Assembly: GCF_030408755.1 (NCBI RefSeq) | Contig: NZ_CP047209.1 | Location: 2,790,001 to 2,854,000, forward strand | DNA length: 64,000 nucleotides | DNA from: Corynebacterium felinum | GTDB lineage: Bacteria; Actinomycetota; Actinomycetes; Mycobacteriales; Mycobacteriaceae | Reading direction: 5' to 3' | Shown here: in pieces, positions 31,628 to 51,688 of the stretch | Numbering within the stretch: the first letter of the stretch is position 1 | How the letters are laid out: each line of letters starts with the position of its first letter | Notes under the pieces: model-generated | What the model was told of the DNA's origin: nothing | Databases searched by the model: none | What the model saw: the letters and a program-made list of their open reading frames with translations, nothing else | Made by a program: the position numbers and the translations under genes

Positions 31628-31810
31628 AAAGGGTAACTCAACCCACTTCTCTCATTATGCCAGTTATGACCTGAAGACGCAGAGCCACCGTTCAGTGAAA
31701 AACCACACATTCGGACATAGTGACACATTTGGCGTTGTTTTCTGTGTTCTCGGGGGTAAAAGTTGCGTCTAGTCCCCACAATGTCAGCCCTGATCTTTAA
31801 GATATTTTTT

Positions 31811-33312: not shown

Positions 33313-33375
33313 AACCCCCGCAACCTGTGACATCCACGCCCATAGTTATTCTGCAAGCGCCACCGCGCGGGGGTT
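33313..33375 (-). terminator. Possible terminator at the end of the island operon
   Basis: A 9-bp stem (AACCCCCGC 33313-33321 with 33367-33375) has a 45-nt loop and overlaps the stop codon of the last island gene. There is no T tract, so support is modest. Confidence 0.35.
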
Positions 33376-34085
33376 TAGTTCTGTGTGCGGTATCCGAACC
33401 ATGGGCGGTTTGATGGCAACCACACAAGAATAGCACCTGCGATACCAAGGGGTGCGAGGTACCACTGCCCCGGCAGAATAACTACAAGTATTCCCAGCAC
33501 AGTCATGCTTGCAAGAATCCACCGCGCCCAGGATTGTGCTTTGAGCACGCCAACCACACCAACGATGAGCGCCACAATGCAGATGCCAAGAATAAGCACC
33601 AGAATGTCGCGGGGGTTGCTTCGAGTACATTCATTAGCCAGCATCCATCCCACGTGGATGAGCCCAAGCCCATAGAGTGCTGCGGCAATCCACAACGCAT
33701 AGGGCGCATTCACAATGGAGGTGTGCCGAAGGCTGGGGTTTCGTTTGTCGGATAAGTCGTCAACGATTCCGGTGGAATAGCTCAAAGCCTGCGGCGTGGC
33801 TGCCGGTGGTATAGCCTCACCGAAAGCATGTGATGCTGGGGGTGGGGGTTGTTGCCCACCGAAAGGTGAGTTGTGCGGTGGCTGGTTGCTGCCAAACGGT
33901 GAGCCGGCGCTTGGTGGGGAGGTACCGAATGGGGAAGCACTCGGGGTGGGTGTGGGCCCGAATGGGGAATCGTTGCCCGCATTTCCAGGCCCGAATGGCG
34001 AGTTGGTGCCCTGCGGTTGCTGTGGTTGTGCCCTAAAAGGGTTGTGGGCACCGCCACTGGATGGGGTGTTGTGATGAGGATTCAT
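33375..34085 (-). CDS. Membrane protein with a repeated SPFG/NPF-rich tail
   Basis: The protein has 236 residues. Residues 1-90 are disordered and rich in Pro, Gln, Gly and Ser, with one NPFR and five SPFG motifs at nearly regular spacing. Residues ~125-230 contain about four TM helices (for example ALWIAAALYGLGLIHVGWML and ILVLILGICIVALIVGVV). The tail probably faces the cytoplasm and could display multiple copies of a short binding motif. AAGGAGA precedes the ATG. It is the last gene of the island, 12 bp downstream of the GTPase gene. I do not recognise a named family. Confidence 0.75.
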   Translation of the reverse strand: MNPHHNTPSSGGAHNPFRAQPQQPQGTNSPFGPGNAGNDSPFGPTPTPSASPFGTSPPSAGSPFGSNQPPHNSPFGGQQPPPPASHAFGEAIPPAATPQALSYSTGIVDDLSDKRNPSLRHTSIVNAPYALWIAAALYGLGLIHVGWMLANECTRSNPRDILVLILGICIVALIVGVVGVLKAQSWARWILASMTVLGILVVILPGQWYLAPLGIAGAILVWLPSNRPWFGYRTQN

Positions 34086-34096
34086 GACTGTCTCCT

Positions 34097-35095
34097 TTAT
34101 TCACTTCGGACAAAAACACCGTGGTTGCTTAAGTACCACAACAGGGGGTCCAAGCAGCGGTAGGGGGCGATGCCTTTGCGGCTGAGGTTTTCACCACGGG
34201 GTGCTTCGCCCAGTGCGGATACCGCAAAGTACTGGTAGGGGGCGTCGCGGTATTCAGATTCGACCATATTAATCAGGCTGCGGGCATCCATCAACCGCAA
34301 GAGGGAACCCACTTCGAGGTGGAGTACTTGCTGGCTGAGTGGATCGTAGTCAAACCCGTTGTCGCGCCGGAATGCGGCACCAAGGTTGCCCATGATGTGC
34401 TTCCAATTGCTGTCGCTGAGCCGGTCGAGGGTTTGGAGGGTATCAAATTTTGATACCGCCAACGCCAGTTGTGGGCGCTGCGATCCTAAAAGCCTCATCA
34501 GGTTCCGGAAAACATCCTCCGGGTTACCGCCAAGCCCACTTTGGATAGGAATTAATCCCGCCAAATAGGTAGCGATGGCAGGTACTTTGAGGGGATCAAA
34601 GAGCATGATGACCAGATCGGCGTGCTGAAAAAACTCCATGGAGGCTGGGTCAACAGTGGGGTTTTCGAGATCTTCGCCTGCTACGTCGCGGATCACAAGG
34701 TAGTTTTTCCGCATGACCCCATCGGGTGCTGGCCATTCCCCAAGGTTAAAAATGAAAGGCTCACGCTGGTAGGCGTCCACGTTCGCGCTGGTGGGCGTCG
34801 GTGGCATGTGTTTCATTTCTTGGTAGAGGGGTCGTTCGTATTTTTCGGAGTACCGCTGTTTGGTCGACGAATCAGCTGGGGTGACCACCACGTGTTGGAA
34901 GCGTTGGCGGGCAAGCAGTTCCAGTTGTTTGATGAGCACGGCCATGTACAGGCTTTTCCCTGAGGCGCGGGCGCCTGCCATGGCAACACAGTGGGTGACG
35001 GACTCGGTCCAGCCTGGGAGTAGTTCGCGTCCCGTGCGGGAGAGCGTATCGCCAGGGTTGAGTGTCTGGTAGGTGTCTGGGCAACGCGCAAACAT
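34097..35095 (-). CDS. P-loop GTPase of the TRAFAC / double-GTPase type
   Basis: The protein has 332 residues. The Walker A is GARASGKS (41-48), switch II is RDVAGED (136-142, Asp137 and Gly140 as DxxG), and the specificity motif is SKFD (215-218, an NKxD variant). This combination marks a small GTPase. Absence of translation or ribosome domains fits the 'double-GTPase' families that comparative work links to GAP1, vWA and tubulin-like partners; that link is from memory. No TM. Its start overlaps the upstream stop by one base (TAATG), with GGAGGT just upstream. Probably the switch component of the island. Confidence 0.75.
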   Translation of the reverse strand: MFARCPDTYQTLNPGDTLSRTGRELLPGWTESVTHCVAMAGARASGKSLYMAVLIKQLELLARQRFQHVVVTPADSSTKQRYSEKYERPLYQEMKHMPPTPTSANVDAYQREPFIFNLGEWPAPDGVMRKNYLVIRDVAGEDLENPTVDPASMEFFQHADLVIMLFDPLKVPAIATYLAGLIPIQSGLGGNPEDVFRNLMRLLGSQRPQLALAVSKFDTLQTLDRLSDSNWKHIMGNLGAAFRRDNGFDYDPLSQQVLHLEVGSLLRLMDARSLINMVESEYRDAPYQYFAVSALGEAPRGENLSRKGIAPYRCLDPLLWYLSNHGVFVRSE

Positions 35096-36336
35096 TAGTG
35101 CTGACCTCCGTTGGGGTCGTCGACAAGCGGGTTGGGTGCAAACGGTGACGGGGGCAGTGTGAAGCTGTCGCCGGTGTCGGGGAATGCAGGTGGTTGCTCA
35201 ACCTCAGGGCGCTGGAAGGGATTTACCCCAGGCAGCACAGGGTTTACTGGGGTGTTCGGGCTTTCCGGTATGAACCCCATGCTCCCACCCTCCGGCGCAG
35301 GCGTAGGCGTAGGCGCAGCGCTGCCGTCTTCGGGCATGCTCTGGCTGTGCGGTGCCGGTGCGGGATCAGCTGTGTTCGGCGTCGTCACGCCTGGTGCGGT
35401 TGCTGCTTGTTGCGCGGGGATGGCGAAGGCGAGCGCGCACGTCTGTGCCGCCTGGCGAAGACTTTGGTGATCGCCGGCGAGAAGTGCGCGTGCTTCCTTG
35501 TCCCCAAAAGCCACGAGATGCAGCGGGAATTGCGCCTGGTAGCTGCGCTGATACTGGGCGATTTCAGCATACGCATTCGCACCGACAACCAGCACCACGG
35601 TGCTATCGCCCAGTTGTGCCAACACTGGGCGCGGTTTCACGGTGACAACAGCCATCGCAGTATCAGGATCGGCGGGCACAATTTGCGCCCCAATAGTGGT
35701 GCTGGCGGCGGCATGCGTGTGTGTGAAGGTGCTCAAGCTGTGGCTGCGCGGGTGAATGTTTATGTCGAAGTAGTCGGCGACACCGACCAGCATTTCTTCC
35801 ACGCAACCGAGCAGCTCATCGGTGATGGTGTGATACATGGATGCGGAGGCGTCTGCCCAGATCAGCATCTGCTTCGCGCGGGCCTGGCTTGCGCCAACCA
35901 GCCGTTGCGCGGATACCGCTGTCATGGCGGCGCGCGAGAGGTCGTTGGCAACGTTGGTGCCAAAAGCGGTGATGAGCACCTGGTTGTCGCTGTGATGCAC
36001 CAGCTCCCCGAGGACGCGCTCAGCGGCACCGTCGAGGCGGGCTTGGGGAAACTCCACCCGCTCAGGGCGACCCGTGCCGAGTTGGGAGACTGCAATGTTG
36101 ATGGAATGATCAGGCGGGAATTCGCCGCCACCTTTGCGCCGAACCACAATATTTGCTTTGTCGGTGAAGGTGGTGAGGTAGATTTGTGCATCGTGTGCCC
36201 GGGTGAATGAAACATCGCCGGTGACATCAAGGACAATGTCTGCGGCGTTGCCTTGGGTGAGCCAACCGTCGATGCGCAAGAAGTCGCCGCGTGCGATGGG
36301 GTACGACTGACCATCGTGCAGTGTTGTTGTGTTCAC
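35095..36336 (-). CDS. Cytoplasmic vWA-domain protein with NPF-containing tail
   Basis: The protein has about 413 residues from GTG 36336, which has AGAGG about 8 bp upstream and starts 4 bp after the previous stop. A longer frame back to 36489 would overlap the neighbour and look non-native. A beta-rich N-terminal domain (1-135) is followed by a vWA-like domain whose MIDAS core is DASAS (ADASASM). The C-terminal ~110 residues are Pro/Ala-rich and contain NPFQ and SPFA. No signal peptide or TM is present. vWA domains bind partner proteins through a metal; here the partner may be the GTPase encoded next. One-base overlap with that gene implies coupled translation. Confidence 0.7.
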   Translation of the reverse strand: MNTTTLHDGQSYPIARGDFLRIDGWLTQGNAADIVLDVTGDVSFTRAHDAQIYLTTFTDKANIVVRRKGGGEFPPDHSINIAVSQLGTGRPERVEFPQARLDGAAERVLGELVHHSDNQVLITAFGTNVANDLSRAAMTAVSAQRLVGASQARAKQMLIWADASASMYHTITDELLGCVEEMLVGVADYFDINIHPRSHSLSTFTHTHAAASTTIGAQIVPADPDTAMAVVTVKPRPVLAQLGDSTVVLVVGANAYAEIAQYQRSYQAQFPLHLVAFGDKEARALLAGDHQSLRQAAQTCALAFAIPAQQAATAPGVTTPNTADPAPAPHSQSMPEDGSAAPTPTPAPEGGSMGFIPESPNTPVNPVLPGVNPFQRPEVEQPPAFPDTGDSFTLPPSPFAPNPLVDDPNGGQH

Positions 36337-36340
36337 TGTG

Positions 36341-38314
36341 TTACCTCTTTCCCTCAATGATTTGCGGTTGGCTTGCTGTATCGGCCCAGCGTTCTTTAAT
36401 CCGCCACGCCTCACCAGGCTCCGATGTGGTGGTCTGGGCACGGCGTGCGAAGAAGCTGTGTTGCGTGGCGCGCAGGCGTTCGATCCCATCCCGCACGAGT
36501 GGCACGAGCTGCGGGGATTGGGTATGGAGTGCGCGCAGGTTGCTTTCGGCGTAGTCGTAGAACCCTTCCCATTCGCTGGCTACTGGGTCGAGGAATGTTT
36601 GGGCTTGCTCAACGAATGCGTCGAGCACTGCGCCGCGTTGGATGGCGGTGAGAATGCCCAGCTCAGGCAGTGCGGTGACAAAGGCTGTGTCGTTCATGTC
36701 GGCTACGGTGAGGAGCATACGGGCACGAAATTCGACGAGCTCCGGGGTGTGCGGCGGGCAGGCAGCGAGTTGATTCAGGCGTGCGAGCATCCGCCAACTA
36801 TCGAGGCTTTTGTGGGTGTCTTGGCTGAAAATATGCTTGAGTGTTTCCACATTTTGGCCGATCAGCTGCAGATCTTCCGCGCTCAATTCCAGCACCGATT
36901 CATATCGCATTCCCGGCTGCATCTCCCCGCTATAGGCCGCATCGCGTATCGACGCCGCCTCATCACCCAGCAACGGATCAGTCTGCCCGTTACTAGGTTG
37001 CTGCAACTCTGGTGTTGCGCCTACAGGTGGAAGGGTGAAGGGGTTCTCCCCTGCCATGTCCACCGGGATTCCCAGACTCTCCATCGGGGCCTGCGGCACA
37101 AAGTGCGGTGTGTAAGCAACCTCAGGCTCACAGTGTGGTGTGTAAACAGTTTCAGGCGCAGAGTGCACAGGAGGTGCTGCCTGCTGTTCCACCGGCACCT
37201 GGAGTGGTTGTGATTGCTGTGCTTGTGGTGGTTGCTGTGTTTGTGCGGCTTGTGGTGGAGTGTGGAAAACGTCAGTCGGTGCCACGGGGTTGGTGTGCAC
37301 TGGTGCCACGGGGTTGGTGTATGACGGTGACTGTGCGTGTGGGTGTGGCGGATGGGCAGTTTCGGCGACGGTGCCCAATTCCACTGCTAGTGGTGGGGTT
37401 TGCTGGGGAAGATGAACGGGCTCCGGTGGTTCGGGAAGCACGAAACTCATCGGCTCAGCCTCGGGTGAGAATGGCAAAGGCTCGTCCACACTGACCACCA
37501 CTGCCCTCGTGCCAACGCGTTGCTTCGCGGCTTCAGCATCAGTTGTTTTCACCACTGCGAACTGGCAGAAATGATCAAACATTTCCATGAGCCGGTCTGG
37601 GGTCTCAAAAGTAGAAAAACTAAAATTCTTCCCCACCGCTCGACCCACCGCAGTGACCCACAACGCGGATTCTTTCAATGGGCATGCCAACACAACCAAA
37701 GAACCCGACTGCACCAACCCCACCAGCGTCGACAAAATTTGGCTGCGCTGCGGGCCTGGGTTCACAGGGGTTACCTGGGCAAAGTTTTCCGGTAGAGGTG
37801 AATCACCCTCCCAGCCGTGGATAAACGCATCCACCACGGCATTCGTCACAGGGCCAGGGGTTGAAGTACGATCCGGCAACTGAACCTTATCCACCTGACT
37901 CTTACCAAAAGGAACTGGGATTTCAGGTGAATACAGCATCCCTACCGGATCAATATCCTTCGTCCCGTTCGGGCAAACCTGAACAAAACTAAACACATTG
38001 CCCGGACGCCCCGTCGAATCTTGGCCCGCATGAGCAGAGGCATAAAACGCCCACCACTGCGACACCTGCCCGCTGTGGTCCAGGATTGGCAGCCATGCGA
38101 AACGACGGTTCAACTGCGCAATCTCCTCTCGGGAAGGATAGTTGCCGGGCGTTTCGCCATCATTGAGCGATGTGGGGATAAGTCGGCGTAAAGAATTAGC
38201 ATCATCCGCCGAAATAACACCTTTCACATCGCCCACGCTCCACCCGCCGGCGCGCTGCGGGCTTGGGGAGAAGGATGCGAAGCTGAATACTCCTACTGTG
38301 TGGTGTGTGTTCAT
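36341..38314 (-). CDS. GAP1-like (GTPase-associated) protein
   Basis: The protein has 657 residues without TM. The N-terminal ~280 residues (SFASFSPSPQRAGGWSVGDV, FAWLPIL and WWAFYASAHAGQD segments) resemble the N-terminal domain of GTPase-associated protein 1 (GAP1-N2-like). I judge this by eye with moderate certainty. A long Pro/Gln/Val-rich linker (about 280-440) includes ENPFTL, and a helical domain closes the protein. It overlaps the upstream gene by 4 bp (ATGA) and is followed by the vWA gene after 4 bp. In comparative-genomics models GAP1 acts with a double GTPase as a sensor or effector scaffold; function here is untested. Confidence 0.6.
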   Translation of the reverse strand: MNTHHTVGVFSFASFSPSPQRAGGWSVGDVKGVISADDANSLRRLIPTSLNDGETPGNYPSREEIAQLNRRFAWLPILDHSGQVSQWWAFYASAHAGQDSTGRPGNVFSFVQVCPNGTKDIDPVGMLYSPEIPVPFGKSQVDKVQLPDRTSTPGPVTNAVVDAFIHGWEGDSPLPENFAQVTPVNPGPQRSQILSTLVGLVQSGSLVVLACPLKESALWVTAVGRAVGKNFSFSTFETPDRLMEMFDHFCQFAVVKTTDAEAAKQRVGTRAVVVSVDEPLPFSPEAEPMSFVLPEPPEPVHLPQQTPPLAVELGTVAETAHPPHPHAQSPSYTNPVAPVHTNPVAPTDVFHTPPQAAQTQQPPQAQQSQPLQVPVEQQAAPPVHSAPETVYTPHCEPEVAYTPHFVPQAPMESLGIPVDMAGENPFTLPPVGATPELQQPSNGQTDPLLGDEAASIRDAAYSGEMQPGMRYESVLELSAEDLQLIGQNVETLKHIFSQDTHKSLDSWRMLARLNQLAACPPHTPELVEFRARMLLTVADMNDTAFVTALPELGILTAIQRGAVLDAFVEQAQTFLDPVASEWEGFYDYAESNLRALHTQSPQLVPLVRDGIERLRATQHSFFARRAQTTTSEPGEAWRIKERWADTASQPQIIEGKR

Positions 38315-40413
38315 CGTTGTTCCACCTGCATTCGGGAAGCGAGGTTAAGGCTTGCCACCGCGTAATCATCAAGGACTACTGGGGTGCCTAAGGAGTGGGC
38401 GCGGGCGAGGTCGTGTTGGATAAAGAGGCGAATGAAGCCGTGGGCGGTGTCTTTCAAATCGAGTGCCCAGTGCATGCCTCGCCCATGGTCGTAGGCTTCG
38501 TCGGGCCCGTTGGCTAGTTCGACTGGGACGATGAATCGTCCTGCTTGGCGGGCGTCATAGGTGCCATCGGATTGGTATGGGGCTGTGGTCACTGGGGTGC
38601 CATCGTTGATGTGCAGTGGGAGGCGTTCTTCGTTGTACACCATGACGAAGGTGGGGGGTTTGCGGTCTTGGGCGTCGTTACGCCAAATCCACAGTTTTGA
38701 TATGTCCTGCCCGTGTGGGTGCGAGTGGATCACACCGTAGGAGTAGGTTTTCAGTCCGTCGTAAGCAATTTCGGTGACTTCAGCTTCGGTGTAGATACCT
38801 GCGTACAGTGACTTCGGGGCGAGTGTGACGGTGTCGCCGAGATGGTGCAGCTTTAAGCGGATGCCGCCTTGGCGTCGATAGTCTTCTTCTACTAGCTCTT
38901 CGGAAATGTTGCTTTGCGAGGAATGCACTTGGACGAGTGCTGCGCCTTGTGGCCAGTCGAAGGTGATCAGCTGGCTGGAGACGCGCTCGTGCAGGCTGTA
39001 TTCCTTGATGGGGGAGACACGGTTGACTACTTTGAAGGTTCCAACCATGGATTTGTCGCCGACAACGTTGACGGGCACGCAGTACACTTGCGACCAGTCG
39101 CTTGGCCAGATCACTGTCTCATCCACTTGGGTGCCGGGTTCGCGCTCATAGGTGCTGACCCATTCTGTGGTGCCGAGTGCTTCATCGTCGGCGATATAGC
39201 TGGAGTCGATGGAAAGCCCGATCATATCCGGCTTCGGTTCGGTACAGGTGAGGTAGATTTTGACTTCGCCGGTGGGTGGGGCGATCCAGCTTAAGTGAAT
39301 TTGGTCGTGTTCCACCCCGGGGATGCGAAACGCGGTTGTGATTTCTACTTGTTGAATGTTTGCACTGATCGTGCGGGTGATGATCGCGCTGCCGTGGCCG
39401 CGTCGGCGTACGCCGCGGAACGTGTAGCCGGGAAAAACTTGGAAGTCGTAGGTTTTACCCCGGGTAGGTACGGTGTAGGTGAAGTTGCGGCCGGTGACCC
39501 CTTCCCGGATTTCGCACTGGGGAATATCCAGCGGTGTGTTGTGTCCGTGTTCGCGGACAAAAACTTGCGCATCTTCGTGCCCGATGAGTGGGGTCCAGGT
39601 GCCGGATACGGTGCCGTTGGTTTCCACTAGGCTGAAGTCGCGTGGCGGTAGTGCGAGTGCGGTTTCGCCAACAAAGATGGGCTGGGTTTTTATCGCTTCT
39701 TTTGCGTTCGGTCCCACATAAGCCCACACCATGTAGTGGCGCATCCCTACGTGCGGTGGGATGGTATCGCGAAACGCCCGACCCTTGGTGTGGACAAGGA
39801 TGTCGCCGGATTCGGGGGAGCATTGTTCTTCCTTGTTGGAGCCCACGAGGCGGTAGAACACGATGTTGTCGCCCGCGTCGATATGCTCCCAGTACACCAG
39901 GACGGAGGTGGGGTTGGTGCTGGTGTCGGGGGTGTCCTCGTCGCTTGTGGCTGGGGTGGCTGGTGTTTCTGCTTTGGCGGTGACTGTGTCTTTCGCTCTG
40001 GTGTCGCTTGACCAGTTAAAGGGGGCGAAGGCATGCAGTGGTGGTTGCAGGAAGTCGTTTTCGTCCACGCAGGGTTCGCTGCTTTCGCCGTCCCAGGCGT
40101 CGGTGCCGAAGTCCCAGCGGTCATCCGCGTCGGCCGTATCCGGTGCTGGTGTGGCTGCGTGCTGCGCCGCGGTGTTAGGTTCACCTTCTTGCGTATCGAC
40201 GTCGGAATCATTGGGCTGTGCACTGTCATGTTTCTGCGCCAGCGGCGTGAACGCCTGCGGATCACCGTGAAGAAGCTGCGCAAGATACTGTGCTTGCTGG
40301 GGCGACAGCTCCGGTGCGAGCGCACGAATATCCTCGACTTCCGGACGAATCAGTGCCGAGATTTGGGCAAGGATGGGCATGGGCAGATCCGCGAGCCAGG
40401 AGTTCATCGTCAT
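38311..40413 (-). CDS. Protein with serial Fn3/Ig-like beta domains
   Basis: The protein has about 700 residues from ATG 40413; a TTG at 40440 would extend it by nine residues. After an acidic, low-complexity first ~165 residues, several beta-sandwich domains follow. Fibronectin type III-like cues include VLVYWEHID, GRAFRDTIPPHVGMRHYMVWAYV and HLSWIAPPTGEVKIYL. There is no signal peptide, sorting motif or TM, which is unusual for Fn3 arrays. Neighbouring overlaps place it inside the island operon, so it is probably an intracellular scaffold. I do not recognise a named family. Confidence 0.65.
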   Translation of the reverse strand: MTMNSWLADLPMPILAQISALIRPEVEDIRALAPELSPQQAQYLAQLLHGDPQAFTPLAQKHDSAQPNDSDVDTQEGEPNTAAQHAATPAPDTADADDRWDFGTDAWDGESSEPCVDENDFLQPPLHAFAPFNWSSDTRAKDTVTAKAETPATPATSDEDTPDTSTNPTSVLVYWEHIDAGDNIVFYRLVGSNKEEQCSPESGDILVHTKGRAFRDTIPPHVGMRHYMVWAYVGPNAKEAIKTQPIFVGETALALPPRDFSLVETNGTVSGTWTPLIGHEDAQVFVREHGHNTPLDIPQCEIREGVTGRNFTYTVPTRGKTYDFQVFPGYTFRGVRRRGHGSAIITRTISANIQQVEITTAFRIPGVEHDQIHLSWIAPPTGEVKIYLTCTEPKPDMIGLSIDSSYIADDEALGTTEWVSTYEREPGTQVDETVIWPSDWSQVYCVPVNVVGDKSMVGTFKVVNRVSPIKEYSLHERVSSQLITFDWPQGAALVQVHSSQSNISEELVEEDYRRQGGIRLKLHHLGDTVTLAPKSLYAGIYTEAEVTEIAYDGLKTYSYGVIHSHPHGQDISKLWIWRNDAQDRKPPTFVMVYNEERLPLHINDGTPVTTAPYQSDGTYDARQAGRFIVPVELANGPDEAYDHGRGMHWALDLKDTAHGFIRLFIQHDLARAHSLGTPVVLDDYAVASLNLASRMQVEQR

Positions 40414-40451
40414 TGTGTTGTTATTTTCTCCCACAATCAATCACCGTGTTC

Positions 40452-43232: not shown

Positions 43233-46200
43233 ACCAGTCCACCCCCAAAGCCCTTGAACTCCACGTTCGAATCCCCAGCATTAAAGCTTGGGCCCTGCGC
43301 AGTGCTGTCAAAACCAATATCAAAAGCTGGGCTTTGCACCACCTGCGTTGCCACCTGCTTCGCCTGCGGCAACAACGAATAAATCAGGTTCGTCATCTCC
43401 ACCACATCCTGGGCAAAATCCCGATAGAACGGCATCTTCGCCGCATGCATACGAGTTGGCGGCATAGCCCACTCCTTCGTGGCCGAAGCAGCACCGGGGA
43501 AACCATGAGAAGTCGAAGGCACGAAATTATCAGCCAACTTCAACGTCTCCTTCAAATGATTCTCCAGCATCGCAGCGCGATCCTCCACACCAGTACCCAC
43601 AACGCCCTGCTCCGCAGGCTTTTCACCGGTGCGCAAGAAGTGCGCAATAGTATCCACCGCAGGGTGACGCACACCGCCACCGGCATTAATTGGCGACTCC
43701 ACAGAATTATCAAAAATGCCACGAAGTGCCCAGTATGGGCGCAGCGACTGCGCCAACTGCCCACCGTTATCCTTATTGTGGCTTTCGGCATAAGCCAACA
43801 AAATCGACTCCAGCACAACAGGCATCCAGTCAATACGATTACGCATCTGGCTGGGACCAGTCAGCATCGGCGCGGGGAACGCCAACCACTGGGAACCATC
43901 GTAAATATAGGCTTGAGCATTCTCCTGCTCCTGGTTGTGGATATAGATCCGGCCAGTAGCCACACCCAAAATCCAGCCCGCCACCATAGCCTTACGCTCA
44001 TCAACACTCAACGGCAATGCCGCAGCCAAGCTCCGTGTGCGGCGCATCTGCCAGAAATTAGCCTTATTAATGCGCGAAGCCCAGTCGTTAGCAATGTGCG
44101 GCAACAAGGAGCTAAACACAATCGGCGAGTAGTTCGGATAGGAACCGAAAATATCAATCCGCTGAATCTTCTTCGCATCCGTCAACGAATTCTCAAACAC
44201 ACTCAAAGTATTCGGATCAATATCGGCCATGCCCTTGATCTCATTGAGCAATTCCTCCGAGGCATCCAAATACTGGAATGGGATTTCGGAGAAGGTGTAG
44301 CGATTAGTCACCGACGTGTTGTGCACAAGCTGAACCATGGCCGAATTCACCGCCGCCAAGGGTCGAGCAAGGAACAATGCCTTGTGGAAAGCAGAGCGCA
44401 GACGCTGAATGCGGGCGTTGTACTCCGAATCCGCAATATTCTCATCGCGGGTCATGTAGCTGCGCAGGTCAGCGGCAATGAAACGCTCAAAGTGGTAACC
44501 CGGGCGGTTAATCCACATCCGTGCGCGCTCCAGCAAATCATCGGGGCGAATAAGAGCCGCGAACACAGCGGTGGACGATTCCCGCATCTCCGAAAAATCA
44601 TGCGGGGACACCTGCAGATGCTTGCTCACCCAACCTGCACGATTCACGCGCGTGTTTTCCCGCTTCTTCGCCGCCAGTGTATTTTCCGGAGCCTTGATCG
44701 CATCGGTCGTTTCCCACCTGCCCGCGATCACAGCGCGGGCTGCAACACGCGATGCCTGGGCAAGATCTTGAATGTGCTCGTCTTGGACGCGCACCGCCTC
44801 TATGAGCTGCTGCTCATAGTCGGCTGGGAAATTATCCACCTCAGTGATGAGGATTTCGTTGGAGGAGCCACGGAATCGGTCAGAGATCTTCTCATCCCGA
44901 TCAGTTGGCCACGCCACCGGATCGGTGGTTGATACATCGGCCAAGTTCAGCTGCGCATCCTTCTTGCGGCTCGCTTCTGCCAAGTCCATGTGGGCTTTTT
45001 CTACTTCTCTTTGAAGTCGCGCCAACACACCAACACGGAAATCATCTAATACCGGCAGCAGCACCTTAGCAAGAGCAATGGTCATGTAGTTGTTGAGCTG
45101 TTCGCGATAAGCCACCTTCAGCTGGTCCACAATGGCCTCACCGTTATGGATACGCTTATTGCCGGTCAGTGGCTGCAAAATCATATCGGCTGAGGATGGC
45201 TTAGCCGACGGGCTCATCATGGAATAAGAGCCGAGCAACAGGTTCATGCCGTTGGAGAGTTTTTGCTGAATGATCACGCTGAGCTGCGCCACAATCGCCT
45301 CAAGATACGGCACGCCCACCTGTGAAAGCTCACTTTCTGCCTGTGCGATCACGGCATCGGTGAACCAGTCGGCGAACTCGTAGACGGCTGCATACGCTTT
45401 GCGATCGAGTATGTCGCGCAGGCGACGATCAAACTCAGGGTTAGCCATGCGGTTTTCAATTTCGCTGGCCCACTCGTTCGTCTTTTGACCATCAACTGGG
45501 CGTGGGAGTGCAGAACCAATCCAAGTTTCGGCCTCAGCCACACCGGAGTACAGCTGCTGGCTGAAGGTATTGTGGAGCCAACCAGCAATGGAGGCATTGG
45601 TGACTTCCTGGTAGCGGAACTCAGGGTTGATCAGTAGTTTTTCCAAGACCCGTGGGAAGCGCTCGTCGATACGTGCTTTGAGCTGCTCCTCCGCCGTCGC
45701 CAAGTTCGTGGGGTCGACGTGGCCTTTCAGCAGCCGATCAAAAGCCGCGCGGGCAAGACGTTGCGCCGAATATTCAGCGTATTTATCCCGACCCATGCTC
45801 AGCTGGGCGTAACCCAACGAACCCCATGGCAAACCATCCCACTTCAGCGTGGATGTGTGTGCCCACCCAAGGTATTGGCGCAGCGCATCGGGCGAACCAG
45901 TATTGGCCAGCGAGTAGGTGACGAAACTGTCGGATGCCTTGTCGGAGTACATCAATGCTGACAGTGCACGGCCCAGGCCCCGGTACACAGCGGTGCTGGA
46001 TCCATCGCCGAATCGTGCTTTGTAGCTGCCCATGCGGTTGCCGATGGGGAAAAGGCGGGCGAAAGTGGAATGACGGTTTCCGCCATGAACACCCAAGGCC
46101 TCATACAAGGCGGCGTCGTTGGCGGTGGCAGCACCGGTTTGGGTGGCGAACACCTCACCAAACATCGCCAGCGAGTTCGGCCATGCGCCCACCATTTGCT

Positions 46201-46876
46201 CACGTGGGAGTTGTTCGAAGACTTCCGGGGTCATCATGAACACGCCAGTGTGTTCCGGTTTGGCGTTCGGCAGTGTGGACAAAACACGGCACACGTCAAG
46301 GAACATAGATGCGCCCGCGCCACCAGCCATGGAGGAAATCACCAGAATGGCAGGTGCGGTATTGTGTGCGTTGGAGCTTTTACCAGTGATTTTATAGTTG
46401 AGTTCATTAAGCTCGTTGACTGCTTCGGCAGTATTCATCTGATCCAACGCACGACTCAGACCCTCCTGAATCCGCTTCAGGCTCGGGATTGTGAGCATAC
46501 GCCCAAGGCAGCGGTATTGGCCCGCGCCGTCGGAGACTGGGGTGTGGATACTCGCAGGTGAGCTTGGCGCCCACGTCGCAACCTCTTTCAACCCACCATT
46601 GCTTGCAAGCTCACTGGTGACAGCAGAATCGAAGGTGGAATACGGCTGGGTGCTACCAATACCGATGTAGTGGCCGCCTGCTTGTTGCACATTAGGCAAA
46701 CCTGATGGCCCAGGTTCGGGTTGGATTGGCACGTCGATGGAGACAAATTGCCATGCTTTGGGCAGTTCAGTGCGGCTCGGATCGAGAGTGCGTATAAGCG
46801 CTTTGAGCTGATCCATCATGTACGCCTGTGTTTTTGCGCCGGAACCGCCGCATCCTACGATGAGAAACTTACGCAT
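43229..46876 (-). CDS. Tubulin-like NTPase
   Basis: The protein has 1,215 residues. It opens with a nucleotide-binding Gly loop GCGGSGAKT (8-16) and has the tubulin/FtsZ-type signature AGGAGAS (184-190) after ILVISSM. This pattern fits the bacterial Tubulin_2 family: large tubulin-related proteins found in conflict and uncharacterised assemblies, distinct from FtsZ. The C-terminal ~800 residues are helical and end in a Phe/Gly tail (FKGFGGGLV). No TM. It probably binds GTP and may polymerise or act as a switch. The next gene downstream overlaps by 4 bp; the exported vWA gene lies 115 bp upstream. Confidence 0.75.
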   Translation of the reverse strand: MRKFLIVGCGGSGAKTQAYMMDQLKALIRTLDPSRTELPKAWQFVSIDVPIQPEPGPSGLPNVQQAGGHYIGIGSTQPYSTFDSAVTSELASNGGLKEVATWAPSSPASIHTPVSDGAGQYRCLGRMLTIPSLKRIQEGLSRALDQMNTAEAVNELNELNYKITGKSSNAHNTAPAILVISSMAGGAGASMFLDVCRVLSTLPNAKPEHTGVFMMTPEVFEQLPREQMVGAWPNSLAMFGEVFATQTGAATANDAALYEALGVHGGNRHSTFARLFPIGNRMGSYKARFGDGSSTAVYRGLGRALSALMYSDKASDSFVTYSLANTGSPDALRQYLGWAHTSTLKWDGLPWGSLGYAQLSMGRDKYAEYSAQRLARAAFDRLLKGHVDPTNLATAEEQLKARIDERFPRVLEKLLINPEFRYQEVTNASIAGWLHNTFSQQLYSGVAEAETWIGSALPRPVDGQKTNEWASEIENRMANPEFDRRLRDILDRKAYAAVYEFADWFTDAVIAQAESELSQVGVPYLEAIVAQLSVIIQQKLSNGMNLLLGSYSMMSPSAKPSSADMILQPLTGNKRIHNGEAIVDQLKVAYREQLNNYMTIALAKVLLPVLDDFRVGVLARLQREVEKAHMDLAEASRKKDAQLNLADVSTTDPVAWPTDRDEKISDRFRGSSNEILITEVDNFPADYEQQLIEAVRVQDEHIQDLAQASRVAARAVIAGRWETTDAIKAPENTLAAKKRENTRVNRAGWVSKHLQVSPHDFSEMRESSTAVFAALIRPDDLLERARMWINRPGYHFERFIAADLRSYMTRDENIADSEYNARIQRLRSAFHKALFLARPLAAVNSAMVQLVHNTSVTNRYTFSEIPFQYLDASEELLNEIKGMADIDPNTLSVFENSLTDAKKIQRIDIFGSYPNYSPIVFSSLLPHIANDWASRINKANFWQMRRTRSLAAALPLSVDERKAMVAGWILGVATGRIYIHNQEQENAQAYIYDGSQWLAFPAPMLTGPSQMRNRIDWMPVVLESILLAYAESHNKDNGGQLAQSLRPYWALRGIFDNSVESPINAGGGVRHPAVDTIAHFLRTGEKPAEQGVVGTGVEDRAAMLENHLKETLKLADNFVPSTSHGFPGAASATKEWAMPPTRMHAAKMPFYRDFAQDVVEMTNLIYSLLPQAKQVATQVVQSPAFDIGFDSTAQGPSFNAGDSNVEFKGFGGGLV

Positions 46877-46991
46877 CTGTGTCTCCTTTTGAAAAGGCCA
46901 ATCCCCGCATCAGTGGTGTGTGGGTAGGGCAGGTGTGTCAGTGTGTTGTTCTGTTGAAGCCACCCCCACCTTGCGGTGGGGGGATATCGCT

Positions 46992-49712
46992 CTAGTGCTT
47001 TGGGCCGAAGGGATTATTCGGCGGGTTTTGAGGGTGAAGTTGCCCAAATGGATGAGAAGGTGGCTGCGGTTGCTGAGAGCGTGTATCGGGGCCACCGAAT
47101 CCCGAATTAGGTTCTGGTTGCGGTGCAGTTCCCGCCCCAAAAGTTGGGTGTGGTGTTGCACCAGAACTCGGCCAGCTTTGTTCTTGCGGCTGCGCAGTCG
47201 GGAAATCTTCAGGTACATCCTGCGGTTGTGGGAATGAGGAGGCATCCTCAGCACTTGGAGGATTCTGCGGGGCGTTGTGCGCGAGCGTGTCCAGCAGGTC
47301 TTTCGCGCCGCGCTTAATTTCGGAGGAAAGTGCGTCGAGAGAATCTTGCTGCACATGTTCATCCACAAGCACAAGCACTTGTCCCGTGCCAGACTCAGCA
47401 TGAAGCGCGTACACAATCCAGTGGCCGGCAATGCTCAGTGGGAGTTTCGCCCGCTGCTTTTCATGATTTCCCTTGCCGAAAATAGATGGTGCAGAATCCG
47501 CCAGCACATAGGCGGAAGCGAAAGGATTCCAGCCCATTGTGACCGACAGCTTCTTGCCCGCCACAACAATGCTGCGCGGCTGCGGCATCACACCAGTGTT
47601 GTTAAACACCATATCCTGGGTATTCAACGCGATCGCGCGATCCCCATCGGTGCGGATCACCTCATCATTATCCACAGCAATGGGGAAGCTGTAGCCGTAA
47701 ATCTTCTTCCGTGGGATAACCCCAGTGATGTACTTGAAGGTGTACAAAATCGCCAGCGGGATGAGCAAACCCAATAAGAGCGCGAGAATCATAGCCACGG
47801 AAAATACCGCTGTGTTCACAGGCACGCGCATGGTGCCGGTGACCGGAAGCTCAACGGCGGCATTCGTTGCCTGATCTTCACTGACAAGCTGAACGGGAAG
47901 GGACAACGCGATGGGGCCGTCGGCAAGCTTCTCAACCGACAAAGTGACAGGCAGTTGTGCCTTCTCACCCTTAGCTAAGGTCAGCGCCGTCTCCTTCGAG
48001 TTATTCGGGGAGCTCACCGCAAGCCCAGCAACACCTTCAGGCAGGGTTGCTTTCACCCCACCAGTATCGCCCAACCAGACACTTCCCGGGCCTTCAACTG
48101 GCAGGTTAAAGGTTATTTCTTTGCTTTCAACCGCAATATCGACACCCGCGGAGATCTTCGGCATATTCACCGGGGTGATCGTCACTGGGAACTGCGCGGT
48201 CAACGGCGAAAGCTGTGTGCCCGGCACCTCTCCCTTCCCCTTCGTGGTGATGTGGGCGGTGAGCACAATGTCACCGGTGGCAACATTGTCGATTTCCTGC
48301 AGCGGGATGGTCACAGTGTTCCCGTCCTTGATTGGCTGCGGGCTGGTCAACGCCTCCCCATGCTCCGCACCGGTGGGCACGAAGGTTGCGGTCAGCATGG
48401 CGTCGCCGTCGAGCCTGCGTGCAGTGCCGTTCTTATCAAGAAGGGTGACAGTCAGCATGTCTTGATTAGACAAGCCCGCGTTTTCTTTCTCGCGAAGCTC
48501 ATCGACAGAAATGTGCAAACCGGGGAAAATCTGCATCTTCGCACGGTAAGTAGTGTGATTACCCTCGGTGGCGCGGTAACCGAACGACCACTGCCCCGAC
48601 CAGTCCACCTCTTCCGGCTTCGTGATGCTCACATCCACCATGCCCGGCAGCGTCTCACCGCGCTGAACCTGGAACTTCACACCCTGAACATCTAGGCTCG
48701 GCTGGTTAAGCTCCAGCACCTGCCCCGTGGGAGTTTTCAGCACCGGGATCAGGTCTTTCTCCCCCTTCGCTTCCTCCGGCTGCGCTTCGAGTCGCACATC
48801 CGTGATGGAGTTGTCGAGGGTGAAGTTGAAGAAATCTTCCGTGCTTCCCTTAAACGACGCCGAACCAGAATCCGGCAAAATCTGGCGGAACGCACCAAAC
48901 AGTGCTGCCGGGTTATCCTTCGCATTAAAGAATGCGCCGTTCGCAGGCAGGTTCGGTCCGCACTCGTTCGTCTCCGCCATATCCCGCAGCAACTTTTCCG
49001 GGCTGCCTTCACCCTGCGGGATCAAACCCACGATGAACAGCTGAATCTGGGAATGGCGCAGGCTTTCGACCACACCGTGGGCGGCGCAAATACGCTCCTG
49101 CGCGGCTTGATCTGCGGCTTTGTCGCCGGGGACGGTGAGCTGACCGTCGGTGAAAAACAGGATGGAGCGACAAGAATGAGCCTGCGAGTGGGCAGAAATA
49201 TCGCGCAGTGCGCCGTTAAGCGCGACTGAGTAGTTGGTGTACATTTCGTTGTTGCGCTCCGCGAAACCTGCCACCGACCTCGTCAGCTTATCGACGTCGG
49301 TGCGCACGTTCGTCCACTCCCCATACACTGCGGGGTCGGAGCTGTATTTTTCACCGAAACCAGCGAGCTTAACGTTGATATCAGCATTGGAGTTATTCGC
49401 GACCTTCCCTAACTGCTGGATTAAGTCTTGGGCGGCGGCAACGCGCACATTTTCAGGGTCGGTTGCCGGACCATTATGCCCGCGCAACGACGCCGACTCG
49501 TCAATCACAAACAGCAGGTCAGCCTGTTTCTTGTTGGAAATACACGAGCTAAGTCGGCTCAGGTTTTGTTCCGCAATGGGCGAAAGGTCGGTTTCTTGGG
49601 CCAACACTAAGGCTGCGGAGTTAACAGCCGCCACAGAAGCGAATGCCGCTGCCGCCGCAACGCCACGGTGAAACAGTTTTGTCACAGTAGTCCTTCTTGT
49701 CGATCGATACAT
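46992..49712 (-). CDS. Exported, membrane-anchored vWA protein with cytoplasmic NPF tail
   Basis: The protein has 906 residues. The N-terminal export signal ends near AQETDL; GTG 49685 with AAGAAGGA just upstream is an alternative start giving a more typical signal peptide. The extracytoplasmic vWA domain (about 60-275) has an intact MIDAS (DESAS 71-75) and two pairs of cysteines. Beta-sandwich domains run to ~620. One TM (637-659) leads to a cytoplasmic folded region (~665-810) and a Pro/Gln-rich tail ending HPFGQ...NPFGPKH. It can therefore link an outside ligand to the cytoplasmic NPF-binding machinery. Family beyond vWA not recognised. Confidence 0.8.
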   Translation of the reverse strand: MYRSTRRTTVTKLFHRGVAAAAAFASVAAVNSAALVLAQETDLSPIAEQNLSRLSSCISNKKQADLLFVIDESASLRGHNGPATDPENVRVAAAQDLIQQLGKVANNSNADINVKLAGFGEKYSSDPAVYGEWTNVRTDVDKLTRSVAGFAERNNEMYTNYSVALNGALRDISAHSQAHSCRSILFFTDGQLTVPGDKAADQAAQERICAAHGVVESLRHSQIQLFIVGLIPQGEGSPEKLLRDMAETNECGPNLPANGAFFNAKDNPAALFGAFRQILPDSGSASFKGSTEDFFNFTLDNSITDVRLEAQPEEAKGEKDLIPVLKTPTGQVLELNQPSLDVQGVKFQVQRGETLPGMVDVSITKPEEVDWSGQWSFGYRATEGNHTTYRAKMQIFPGLHISVDELREKENAGLSNQDMLTVTLLDKNGTARRLDGDAMLTATFVPTGAEHGEALTSPQPIKDGNTVTIPLQEIDNVATGDIVLTAHITTKGKGEVPGTQLSPLTAQFPVTITPVNMPKISAGVDIAVESKEITFNLPVEGPGSVWLGDTGGVKATLPEGVAGLAVSSPNNSKETALTLAKGEKAQLPVTLSVEKLADGPIALSLPVQLVSEDQATNAAVELPVTGTMRVPVNTAVFSVAMILALLLGLLIPLAILYTFKYITGVIPRKKIYGYSFPIAVDNDEVIRTDGDRAIALNTQDMVFNNTGVMPQPRSIVVAGKKLSVTMGWNPFASAYVLADSAPSIFGKGNHEKQRAKLPLSIAGHWIVYALHAESGTGQVLVLVDEHVQQDSLDALSSEIKRGAKDLLDTLAHNAPQNPPSAEDASSFPQPQDVPEDFPTAQPQEQSWPSSGATPHPTFGAGTAPQPEPNSGFGGPDTRSQQPQPPSHPFGQLHPQNPPNNPFGPKH

Positions 49713-49729
49713 GGCGGTACCCCTTCGTG

Positions 49730-50308
49730 TTAAAACACCTTAGAAACCCACAAGGAGATTTCAATCGCAGTAATCACAACCCCTATCGCCCCCACCGCGA
49801 GGGCCAGACGAGTCAGGGCAACGTGAGTCGAATTTTCCAAGTAACAAGCTGCCGACTTGCGCTTATTGTCCACCACTTTATGCACCCCCACCAGCACAAA
49901 AGCAATAATTCCGGACAAGACCCACCCCGCGATGGCAAACATGCGGAAACCACTATCGGTGGCACTGCCACCGATAACGGGCGCAAGCACACCACAGATC
50001 AACCCAACAAACGCGGCCACGGTCGCAGCGCTGACAAAACCCCACGGGCCGGTCGCTGGGGCAGCAAGCGCTGGTGGGGTATCACGCTCAAAGGAGGTAT
50101 CGGGAGTTGATGCGCCAAAAGGCGAGCTCGAACCACCAGCCGGTGCAGGTTGCTGGCCGAATGCGCTCGGTGCAGTCTCAAAACCTTGCTGGCTAGGCTG
50201 CTGGCCAAACCCACCGCCGAAGCTTGGGGGTGATTGTGTGCCAGAGTTGGGTTGGGATTGGCCAAAGCTGTTAGTGCCGGAATTACCAAATGGGGACGAC
50301 ATGAGCAT
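49730..50308 (-). CDS. Small membrane protein with SPFG-rich tail
   Basis: The protein has 192 residues (190 if the second Met, 50302, is used). The first 95 residues are disordered and rich in Gly, Gln and Ser, with two SPFG motifs and related NSFG/SAFG variants. Three to four TM segments follow (for example GFVSAATVAAFVGLICGVLAPVI and IAGWVLSGIIAFVLVGVH). Layout is the same as the 33375-34085 protein at the other end of the island, so the two may be distant paralogues or convergent in design. It is 17 bp upstream of the exported vWA gene in the same direction. Confidence 0.7.
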   Translation of the reverse strand: MLMSSPFGNSGTNSFGQSQPNSGTQSPPSFGGGFGQQPSQQGFETAPSAFGQQPAPAGGSSSPFGASTPDTSFERDTPPALAAPATGPWGFVSAATVAAFVGLICGVLAPVIGGSATDSGFRMFAIAGWVLSGIIAFVLVGVHKVVDNKRKSAACYLENSTHVALTRLALAVGAIGVVITAIEISLWVSKVF

Positions 50309-50352
50309 TCTTGCTTTCGTTCAATGGTCTATGTGTGTTTTCCACAGATACT

Positions 50353-50781
50353 TTAGAAATTCTCGCTATACCGGCCAGCGGCACGCAGAATATTTAAGAA
50401 ATTGGCCACAAGCCACAGCACGAAAATTACCCGCACTGTATCCAATACGCCTGCTACTTCGGAGTGAAATAAAAACAGGCCGCATAAAAGTTGGAAAACC
50501 GCCACCTTGTAGTGTTTCAAGTAGAAATTGTGCGCCCCGAAAATACCGAGGAAAACCAGGAGCACAAGGGCAAGCACTTTGCTTTTTGGCCCTTTGGGAA
50601 GCGGGTTGGTTGGGGGCGCAACTGGTGTCCACGCCTGTGGTGCTTGCTGCAAAGGGTGTGGGGTGGCGCCGTTGGGTGCTCGGGGCGGGAGGGTGACGTC
50701 GCCGACGAGATCAACTGTGGGTAGTGTGTTGTCGTCCTGCCCGTTGGGGCGCTTACGAAAAGGGTTAACCGGCTGATCCAT
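50353..50781 (-). CDS. TM2-domain protein with N-terminal NPF motif
   Basis: The protein has about 142 residues from ATG 50781, preceded by GGAAGGTGAC; ATG 50805 is a weaker alternative. The N-terminal ~70 residues are disordered and carry VNPFRKR. The C-terminal half fits the TM2 domain: KSKVLALVLLVFLGIFGAHNFYL, a polar turn, then VAVFQLLCGLFLF, plus a further hydrophobic helix. TM2 proteins are small membrane adaptors of mostly unknown function. It is the first gene of the island operon in transcription order. Confidence 0.8.
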   Translation of the reverse strand: MDQPVNPFRKRPNGQDDNTLPTVDLVGDVTLPPRAPNGATPHPLQQAPQAWTPVAPPTNPLPKGPKSKVLALVLLVFLGIFGAHNFYLKHYKVAVFQLLCGLFLFHSEVAGVLDTVRVIFVLWLVANFLNILRAAGRYSENF

Positions 50782-51688
50782 GTCACCTTCCACGCTTTCT
50801 GTCATGCTGTGAATTGCTCACAGGGGCGCAACCGCACGGTCACACGCGAGTGGCAGGCAGTGACTGCGCGCTTTGTCGTTCTGCTTCCCACGGCATAGAC
50901 ATCGCTTTTACTGAACTGAGTTAAACTTCAATATACTCACTATCCTTTATTTTCGATAGGTGTTTTCTCCCATTATGCGGGCAATACACCGCAACCACGT
51001 TCTGCCCCATTGCCAGTATTTTTGGCCGACTGGCACGGCTTTGTACAGCTGCGCTACCACTTGGGCACAAGTGCTCAACCTGCTACCCCCTACCCCCGCC
51101 ACACGGCACAGTCTCACCGGATTGCTCCACACCCCGTTTTTTCTTCCTAGGTTTCTACCCCCGGAACACTCCCCTGCTGCCGCTATCGCCCTGCCTATAT
51201 TGGCGAAGTGTTCAATTGCGGGGCATGATTTCACAACCGGCATGCACGGCGTGGGCTCGTCACCTCAAGGCCCAGCGCTGTTTGTTAGGTTGTTCGTCCG
51301 ATGATCTCTGGGTTTCACGCAGGTAATTGCAGTTCACCTAAGAATTAGAATATGCGTATATGTGCACGCGTTGGCGCAGGTGAATGCCTGCATTTATATG
51401 CGCAAGAGACATTCAACGAGCTGGTTCAAACAATGGTTTCGCCCATGTTTTTGCCTCCTGGCAAAACACACAGCACAACTCTTTTTGACACGACACCACT
51501 GTGGCAAATGTATCTATTCCGCCACCGCGCGCTGCTTCAAGCAGAAGCAGTGCCATGATGACAACTGCGCGGCATATTTACTCATCAGCTCACACACATT
51601 GGTTTATTGGAGAAATTGAGCTTTTAGCACTACGGGAAACCCCTGAGGAGACAACAAAACGCTTCAAGCGCCCAACGCTTTTACTCTG
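50782..51688. other. ~0.9-kb intergenic region upstream of the island, no gene
   Basis: The island promoter should lie near 50920-50960: on the minus strand there is a GTATATTG element around 50929-50936, and CTATC/GATAG arms at 50940-50944 and 50955-50959 form a small dyad. The rest has only short frames without ribosome-binding sites. Composition differs from flanking genes (more AT on the island side). Confidence 0.5.

Follow-up and report, generated by a model that had tools for sequence, protein, structure and literature searches.

What ties a tubulin-like protein of Corynebacterium to its membrane, and what does the gene set around it do? The question is raised by a block of ten genes in Corynebacterium felinum, from whose 3.24-Mb one-contig genome we analysed positions 2790001-2854000 (64,000 nucleotides, hereafter the window; positions are counted from its first letter). 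The block lies on the minus strand at 33375-50805, its start codons were checked, and its genes are numbered g1 to g10 from the downstream end. The tubulin-like protein g7 and the membrane protein g6 end in short peptides that match each other within a genome; read from the sequences, this hints at a way in which the machine might be attached to the membrane. An earlier note, made from the DNA alone, had described nine genes on one strand with short junctions. The strand and the junctions are as it said, with overlaps of 1-4 bp at g7/g6, g5/g4 and g3/g2 and short gaps elsewhere (the widest, 115 bp, between g8 and g7), but its own list runs to ten genes. The protein types it named are all in the sequence: a tubulin, a GTPase, two vWA proteins, a GAP1-like protein, an Fn3 protein, a protein with two transmembrane (TM) segments and three small membrane proteins. 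TM segments and their sidedness were assigned by inspection. From the upstream to the downstream end, the features are:

50353-50805, minus strand: g10, small membrane protein with a TM2 domain (Pfam TM2, E = 7.8e-12) and a proline-rich N-terminal tail with an NPF motif; a second ATG at 50781 (minus strand) is an alternative start
49730-50308, minus strand: g9, small membrane protein whose N-terminal tail is rich in FG/PFG (conserved core order, tail statistics)
46992-49712, minus strand: g8, vWA protein with the motif DESAS (VWA, E = 2e-8)
46995-47204, minus strand: FG/[ND]PF-repeat tail of g8, its C-terminal 70 residues
43229-46876, minus strand: g7, tubulin-like NTPase (Tubulin_2/FtsZl1, E = 5.8e-44 for Tubulin_2) with a long C-terminal region
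43232-43255, minus strand: C-terminal peptide of g7, KGFGGGLV, its last eight residues
40452-43232, minus strand: g6, unannotated protein of 926 residues with two TM segments and a C-terminal tail
42573-43232, minus strand: N-terminal alpha/beta domain of g6, about residues 1-220, in which no Walker A motif was seen
40455-40478, minus strand: C-terminal peptide of g6, DFGTHGLI, its last eight residues, matched to the g7 tail
38311-40413, minus strand: g5, Fn3-like protein with a weakly HRDC-like N-terminus
36341-38314, minus strand: g4, GAP1-like protein (GAP1-N2, E = 1.6e-14)
35095-36336, minus strand: g3, second vWA-like protein (DASAS), likely cytoplasmic, with NPF and SPF in its C-terminal tail; its GTG start was picked from homologues
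34097-35095, minus strand: g2, TRAFAC-type GTPase with the conserved motifs GARASGKS, DVAGED and SKFD (DO-GTPase2, E = 1.1e-4)
33375-34085, minus strand: g1, small membrane protein with an SPFG-repeat N-terminal tail

The C-terminal tails of g7 and g6 are alike within a genome and switch together between clades. FGGLV at the end of g7 is paired with FDGLV at the end of g6, DFGGGLI with DWDSLI, NDLDDTF with SDLDETF, PGEGEF with PGTGEF, PGEDLF with PGEDLF and IPDGGTF with PGEDMVF. Scoring the last eight residues of own-genome pairs against permuted pairs (5000 permutations), with 84 clusters at 90% g7 identity as rows, gave an own-genome score of 9.13 versus -0.18 +/- 0.88 for permuted pairs (z = 10.6). 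The signal persisted under coarser clustering, with z of 9.9 (54 clusters at 70%), 8.3 (35 at 60%) and 4.3 (8 at 50%), and at every level p was the smallest that 5000 permutations allow. Twelve control gene pairs, with 57-84 rows each at the 90% level, gave z values from -2.3 to 2.9, headed by g6-g3 (2.9) and g7-g8 (2.2). The last residue is identical in 62 of the 84 g7/g6 pairs and of the same class in 68. A hydrophobic residue ends 80 of 84 g7 proteins (F, I, L, V, M or Y) and 76 of 84 g6 proteins (F, I, L, V or M), and profile comparison detected no homology between the two.

Codon choice shows at which level this likeness is kept. At the 229 identical tail positions, codons are the same in 117, versus 118.7 expected from codon use. 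This agreement with expectation makes copying of DNA unlikely, so that the level in question is the protein; gene conversion was rejected as a source of the matched tails on the same ground. In Pagel-type tests on the g7 tree (chi-square with 4 degrees of freedom; such tests can be generous when changes are few), independence of the two ends was rejected for an aromatic end (likelihood ratio 24.0, p = 8e-5) and an aliphatic end (26.2, p = 3e-5), and the next residue gave p = 0.02-0.03. By parsimony, the aromatic end changes 13 and 11 times. Independent pairs for this trait gave 7.0 same versus 1.8 opposite (median p = 0.18), and 7.6 versus 1.0 in the reverse direction (median p = 0.04).

A different kind of short motif marks other membrane proteins of the block. 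The vWA protein g8 has an N-terminal hydrophobic segment, one later TM segment, a cytoplasmic domain and a PFG-rich C-terminal tail; this tail and the N-terminal tails of g9 and g1 are of low complexity and carry FG, WG and [ND]PF repeats. In 84 g8 tails [ND]PF occurs 83 times versus 4.9 expected, and in 76 g9 tails 57 times versus 4.8; because the shuffling ignores self-copying of repeats, the numbers of tails that carry the motif (40 in each case) weigh more than these totals. In repeat type, g8 covaries with g9 (z = 5.3, 34 clusters) and with g1, and so does g9 with g1. The plain composition of g8 and g9 covaries as well (z = 6.9), and part of the repeat-type signal may therefore be composition. 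The repeat type of g8 or g9 does not covary with g7, and its covariation with g6 is weak (z up to 2.4). The repeats suggest stickers that would give cohesion to the membrane parts.

Profile searches identify the kind of system in which these tails occur. The g7 protein matches Tubulin_2 above the cut-off at residues 5-379 of 1215, and residues G8-G13 of its GCGGSG motif are invariant among 50 aligned sequences. The g4 protein matches GAP1-N2 above the cut-off; at E 0.1, GAP1-N2 was found in 32 of 32 g4 members and GAP1-M in 30 of them, though not in the window's own g4, and the Pfam scan of g4 members gave no match to GAP1-C. The GTPase g2 scores 22.3 bits with DO-GTPase2, under the cut-off of 27, and 16 of 20 g2 members match at E 0.1 (best 2.5e-11). 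It is without two N-terminal zinc ribbons, only a CPDT standing near the N-terminus of the window protein; CxxC pairs are retained in the aligned Mycobacterium and Rhodococcus relatives. The window's own g3 and g5 have no Pfam match. Among their relatives, vWA-TerF-like was found weakly in 9 of 31 g3 members (best E = 0.0036), with DxSxS conserved in the g3 alignment, and fn3 in 2 and HRDC in 1 of 35 g5 members, again weakly (best E = 0.017 and 0.045). Pfam saw no Fn3 in g8. The one NCBIfam match among the block proteins (g10) lies far under the cut-off, and PHROGs matched g10 alone, with families of unknown function throughout. Of the folds proposed in the earlier note, the tubulin, GAP1-like and g8 vWA assignments were borne out, the GTPase was supported by a DO-GTPase2 match that stays below its cut-off in the window but recurs among relatives, and the vWA of g3 and the Fn3 of g5 had no match of their own.

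The gene set matches the actinobacterial GAP1-N2 tubulin theme, and the block therefore belongs to a known class. Kaur 2020 (PMC7159879) treats this class as predicted conflict systems and describes the actinobacterial tubulin form, in agreement with the GAP1, DO-GTPase, vWA and tubulin grouping that the note had cited. The note's label 'unknown function' was too bare, as two roles have been predicted in print: conflict (PMC7159879) and, in Makarova and Koonin 2010 (PMC2875224), membrane remodelling for FtsZl1 operons.

The genes are inherited together. We compared a Corynebacterium set of 61 regions (60 others and the window) with a named-record set, the best 80 of 149 relatives, which overlaps with it; gene order was judged by 3' ends, among scoring components only. 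The order g9-g8-g7-g6-g5-g4-g3-g2, which we define as the core, is kept in 61 of 61 regions, the window included, and in 80 of 80 loci. The complete core of eight genes scores in 26 regions and 68 loci; missing scores reflect contig-end cuts or divergence, above all of g3, which scores in only 27 regions and 74 loci. The g6 gene scores in every region and every locus (as a fragment in L223), g10 in 6 regions and 2 loci, and g1 in 20 regions and 12 loci. The single co-inherited system that the note had supposed thus stands: the GTPase and tubulin folds are there, and the genes are not scattered.

The constant member g6 is also the least familiar one. It has no Pfam match above the cut-off, and 53 relatives share no consistent Pfam family. 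Eleven g6-related proteins were found, all four named ones being hypothetical or uncharacterized. Its AlphaFold2 model has a pLDDT of 84.4 and a pTM of 0.75. Fold searches with the N-terminal domain returned mostly small GTPases among the matches listed, none of them significant. We rejected g6 as a second tubulin: the N-terminal pattern looks tubulin-like, but the profile comparison was empty. The fold matches listed include no tubulin or FtsZ, although this leaves room for one. Descent of g6 as a paralogue of the GTPase g2 was likewise rejected, there being no profile relation.

Within Corynebacterium the block is patchy and relocating. Tubulin_2 was found in 64 of 201 Corynebacterium genomes (60 of 195 good ones), with one copy each, the C. 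felinum genome having one match, and in 28 of 394 genomes of a class-wide sample that includes this genome. A C. glutamicum genome used as a control matches Tubulin_2 as well. In the window the block stands between fba (30477-31511) and a 387-aa gene, next to which comes an RlmB/TrmH-type methyltransferase gene. Four of eight stretches from other genomes (G193, G156, G043 and G019) have fba and the 387-aa gene directly adjacent, and the other four have no fba match. The two genes being neighbours elsewhere, the block was inserted here, as the note had suspected from the few genes between fba and pyrE in C. glutamicum. Only 6 of 61 regions use the fba site (the window, G124, G165, G136, G189 and G026). 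A 502-aa gene without an NCBIfam family (31763-33271, plus strand, in the window) stands beside the block in all six; in genomes where fba adjoins the 387-aa gene, it was not found between them. Also in the window, an open reading frame (ORF) at 54465-55895 (minus strand) resembles TtfA, the trehalose monomycolate transport factor (E = 3.7e-22, 79 bits versus a cut-off of 450), so that a gene near the insertion site may have to do with lipid transport in the mycomembrane. Another ORF of 2076 residues (9709-15939, minus strand) coincides with a dip in G+C content to 0.47-0.55 (2-kb steps; neighbours 0.54-0.60).

How the block came to be so distributed was followed on a ClpB tree. In a hand-chosen, non-random sample of 39 genomes with and 42 without the block, presence requires 24 changes versus a shuffled mean of 27.4, which is close to random. 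On this tree two deeply separated g7 lineages, of 19 and 20 rows, are interleaved with 6 changes, at least 5 of them forced by well-supported branches. These Corynebacterium lineages are about 35% identical and comprise 27 and 33 of the 60 entries passing the length filter; given exactly one match per positive genome, they may be mutually exclusive. On the g7 tree the 19 genus labels need 19 changes (minimum 18; 28 of 84 rows are unlabelled), and genera are well separated. We read this as an old system that was often lost and to some extent exchanged within Corynebacterium; two ancient copies with differential loss may explain it instead. Carriage by mobile elements was rejected: the tubulin gene occurs in 2 of 72,556 plasmid records, both Rhodococcus megaplasmids (NZ_CP113952.1, 1.39 Mb; NZ_CP110470.1, 1.10 Mb), and phage records hold no copy. 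Insertion at tRNA genes was rejected as well. Of the 61 regions, 10 had tRNA calls by ARAGORN; these lie at a distance of about 3 kb or more, except that in G128 one call falls within the operon span.

The flanks of the block were searched for related genes. The 80 named loci have 473 flanking ORFs, of which we sampled 136 from 30 loci; TerD was the commonest Pfam family among these (7 ORFs). By phmmer (E 1e-6, queries from L231), TerD homologues occur in the upstream flank of 13 of the 80 loci, a count given here without a background rate and with at least 9 loci lacking usable upstream sequence. They belong to Rhodococcus (4), Williamsia (3), Gordonia (2), Nocardia (2), Arthrobacter (1) and Pseudarthrobacter (1). 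None lies inside the core; six (L170-L172, L183, L207 and L209) stand immediately upstream of g9 and co-directional with it. The 61 Corynebacterium regions, the window's stretch included, contain no TerD homologue. Separately, the upstream flanks of L219 and L231 carry clusters of four TerD homologues on the opposite strand, with TelA and DUF475-type neighbours. Among the sampled flanking ORFs, 20 PADLOC families had matches at E 1e-5, every one of them through a single member. The strongest were PDC-S01 (1.9e-70), HEAT-ARM_XIII (6.5e-45), Cas12-type models (best 4e-38), Csx1 (7e-22) and mad3 (2e-19).

We tentatively regard the actinobacterial GAP1-N2/tubulin system as an accessory, membrane-attached switch that would most likely answer envelope damage or invasion, and we hold this reading with rather less than even confidence. 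The TerD genes upstream of the 13 loci, the patchy presence and the interleaving of two lineages on the ClpB tree were taken as support for a role in stress or conflict. We infer each functional step, from sensing by g8, switching by g2 and g4, assembly of g7 and anchoring by g6 to the stress or conflict role itself. The outward-facing vWA protein g8 would sense a ligand or damage. Its cytoplasmic FG/[ND]PF tail, together with the like-typed tails of g9 and g1, may hold the membrane parts in a cluster. The switch would consist of the GTPase g2 with its partner GAP1 protein g4, the Fn3 protein g5 and the cytoplasmic vWA protein g3. Once licensed, the tubulin-like g7 would assemble on the membrane protein g6, the two being brought to one site because a single putative pocket reads their like C-terminal peptides. 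That one pocket reads a docking peptide common to the tubulin and its membrane anchor, giving a tail code which recruits tubulin assembly to the anchor and is kept lineage-specific by coevolution, while a separate FG/[ND]PF code clusters the sensor and the small membrane proteins, seems to us plausible but likelier wrong than right.

A number of results weigh against this reading. The Pagel-type test of the PxxG pattern gave p = 0.09. In a path-disjoint swap test of 35 pairs, 17 spoke for the match, 9 spoke against it and 9 were ties, which is not significant (p = 0.17); larger tail differences made the outcome no more decisive (14/10/7 and 13/10/3), and the control pair g7-g8 did about equally well in it (17/8/10). 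The tail class is mismatched in 16 of 84 rows. Loci L159, L168 and L169 lack a matching g6 tail, and none was found in the three frames just downstream; in L168 and L169, g7 ends in NPFGGPF. The tail reader was not found by a coevolution scan, a method that handles phylogeny poorly: g3, a candidate for this reader, contributed 0 of the top 100 columns from 288 informative ones, and g4, g7 and g5 were slightly enriched. To this are added the lack of a significant fold match for the g6 N-terminal domain and, on the side of function, the absence of any match to PADLOC-DB 2.0.0 among the ten block proteins at E 0.1, of a clear defence island in the 136 sampled flanking ORFs, and of a copy of the tubulin gene in 50,697 phage records. 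The defence role that the earlier note had entertained is thus not shown; as the flank counts have no baseline, a modest defence enrichment stays possible. Concerning the tails, the weak swap test and the equal control pair mean that switches between clades, moderate in number, carry the signal. Our reading is that the g7/g6 pairing is real at that level, the resolution of the data ending within clades.

The matching could be a weak by-product, the tails covarying merely by shared ancestry and composition, and the swap test with its equal control pair speaks for this, as do a correlation of 0.67 between tail distance and g7 body distance and the two control pairs that reach z of 2.2 and 2.9. 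But the controls remain far under z 10, codon choice is independent, the correlated-evolution tests reject independence, and the likeness sits at the very ends of two proteins without detected homology; we consider this explanation very doubtful. A shared degradation or processing signal, through which g6 and g7 would be cleared jointly by a single protease or adaptor, would account for the hydrophobic residue so common at both ends, since known C-terminal degrons likewise end in a hydrophobic residue. Host proteases, however, are conserved, whereas the peptide varies widely between clades (PGEGEF, DLDDTF, DFGGGLI, IPEGGTF). Moreover, coding sequence for P[DE]GGTF-stop occurs once, at g7, in six of seven mycobacterial genomes and is absent from the seventh; no second protein of those six bears the exact pattern. 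A degradation signal is thus doubtful.

The remaining rival concerns function rather than tails: a housekeeping machine for membrane remodelling or vesicles that is uninvolved in conflict or defence, along the lines of Makarova and Koonin's proposal for FtsZl1 operons. The combination of Tubulin_2/FtsZl1 with vWA, GTPase and membrane proteins fits that description (PMC2875224), the g7 tree follows the genera closely, and neither a defence profile nor a clear defence island was found. Such a machine would be steadier, however, than a block held by under a third of Corynebacterium genomes, scattered almost at random on the ClpB tree and placed at the fba site in so few regions. We regard it as somewhat unlikely and retain the accessory switch as our working model.

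If that model holds, sharing of a peptide would be what brings a bacterial tubulin to the membrane, and the TerD genes found upstream would connect such systems with the Ter stress response. A bacterial machine with two orthogonal short-motif codes would, if true, be new to us. The matched tails offer a concrete and cheap handle on how the parts meet. So far the class appears to exist in print as a prediction only: among the papers listed by our searches, mostly without subscription journals, we recognised neither an experiment on it nor a link between tubulin and TerD.

With the GAP1-N2 tubulin theme, the block has in common a single tubulin gene with a long C-terminal region, GAP1-N2, a DO-GTPase, a membrane vWA protein and, by weak matches among relatives, an HRDC/Fn3-like protein, as given in Kaur 2020 (PMC7159879). 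There the GTPase usually has two N-terminal zinc ribbons, of which little is left in the window protein. Going beyond the theme section of that paper are the constant two-TM protein g6, the match of its tail with the tubulin tail, the FG/[ND]PF tails and the upstream TerD genes; in its main text, TerD appears once, in another context, and a term search found neither 'C-terminal tail' nor 'low complexity'. FtsZl1 operons share FtsZl1/Tubulin_2, vWA and GTPase genes and membrane proteins with the block; they differ (PMC2875224) in that most members have an extended coiled coil and several genomes have OmpA-like partners. Ter systems (TerD, TerC, TelA and TerF-type vWA) resemble the block in the weak vWA-TerF-like matches of g3 relatives and in the TerD genes adjoining some loci, but differ in that TerD is never inside the core and is absent from the Corynebacterium regions. 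The C-terminal tails of FtsZ and tubulin dock partner proteins. Like them, the g7 tail ends in a short conserved peptide; unlike them, it is matched by a peptide on a second, membrane-bound protein, g6.

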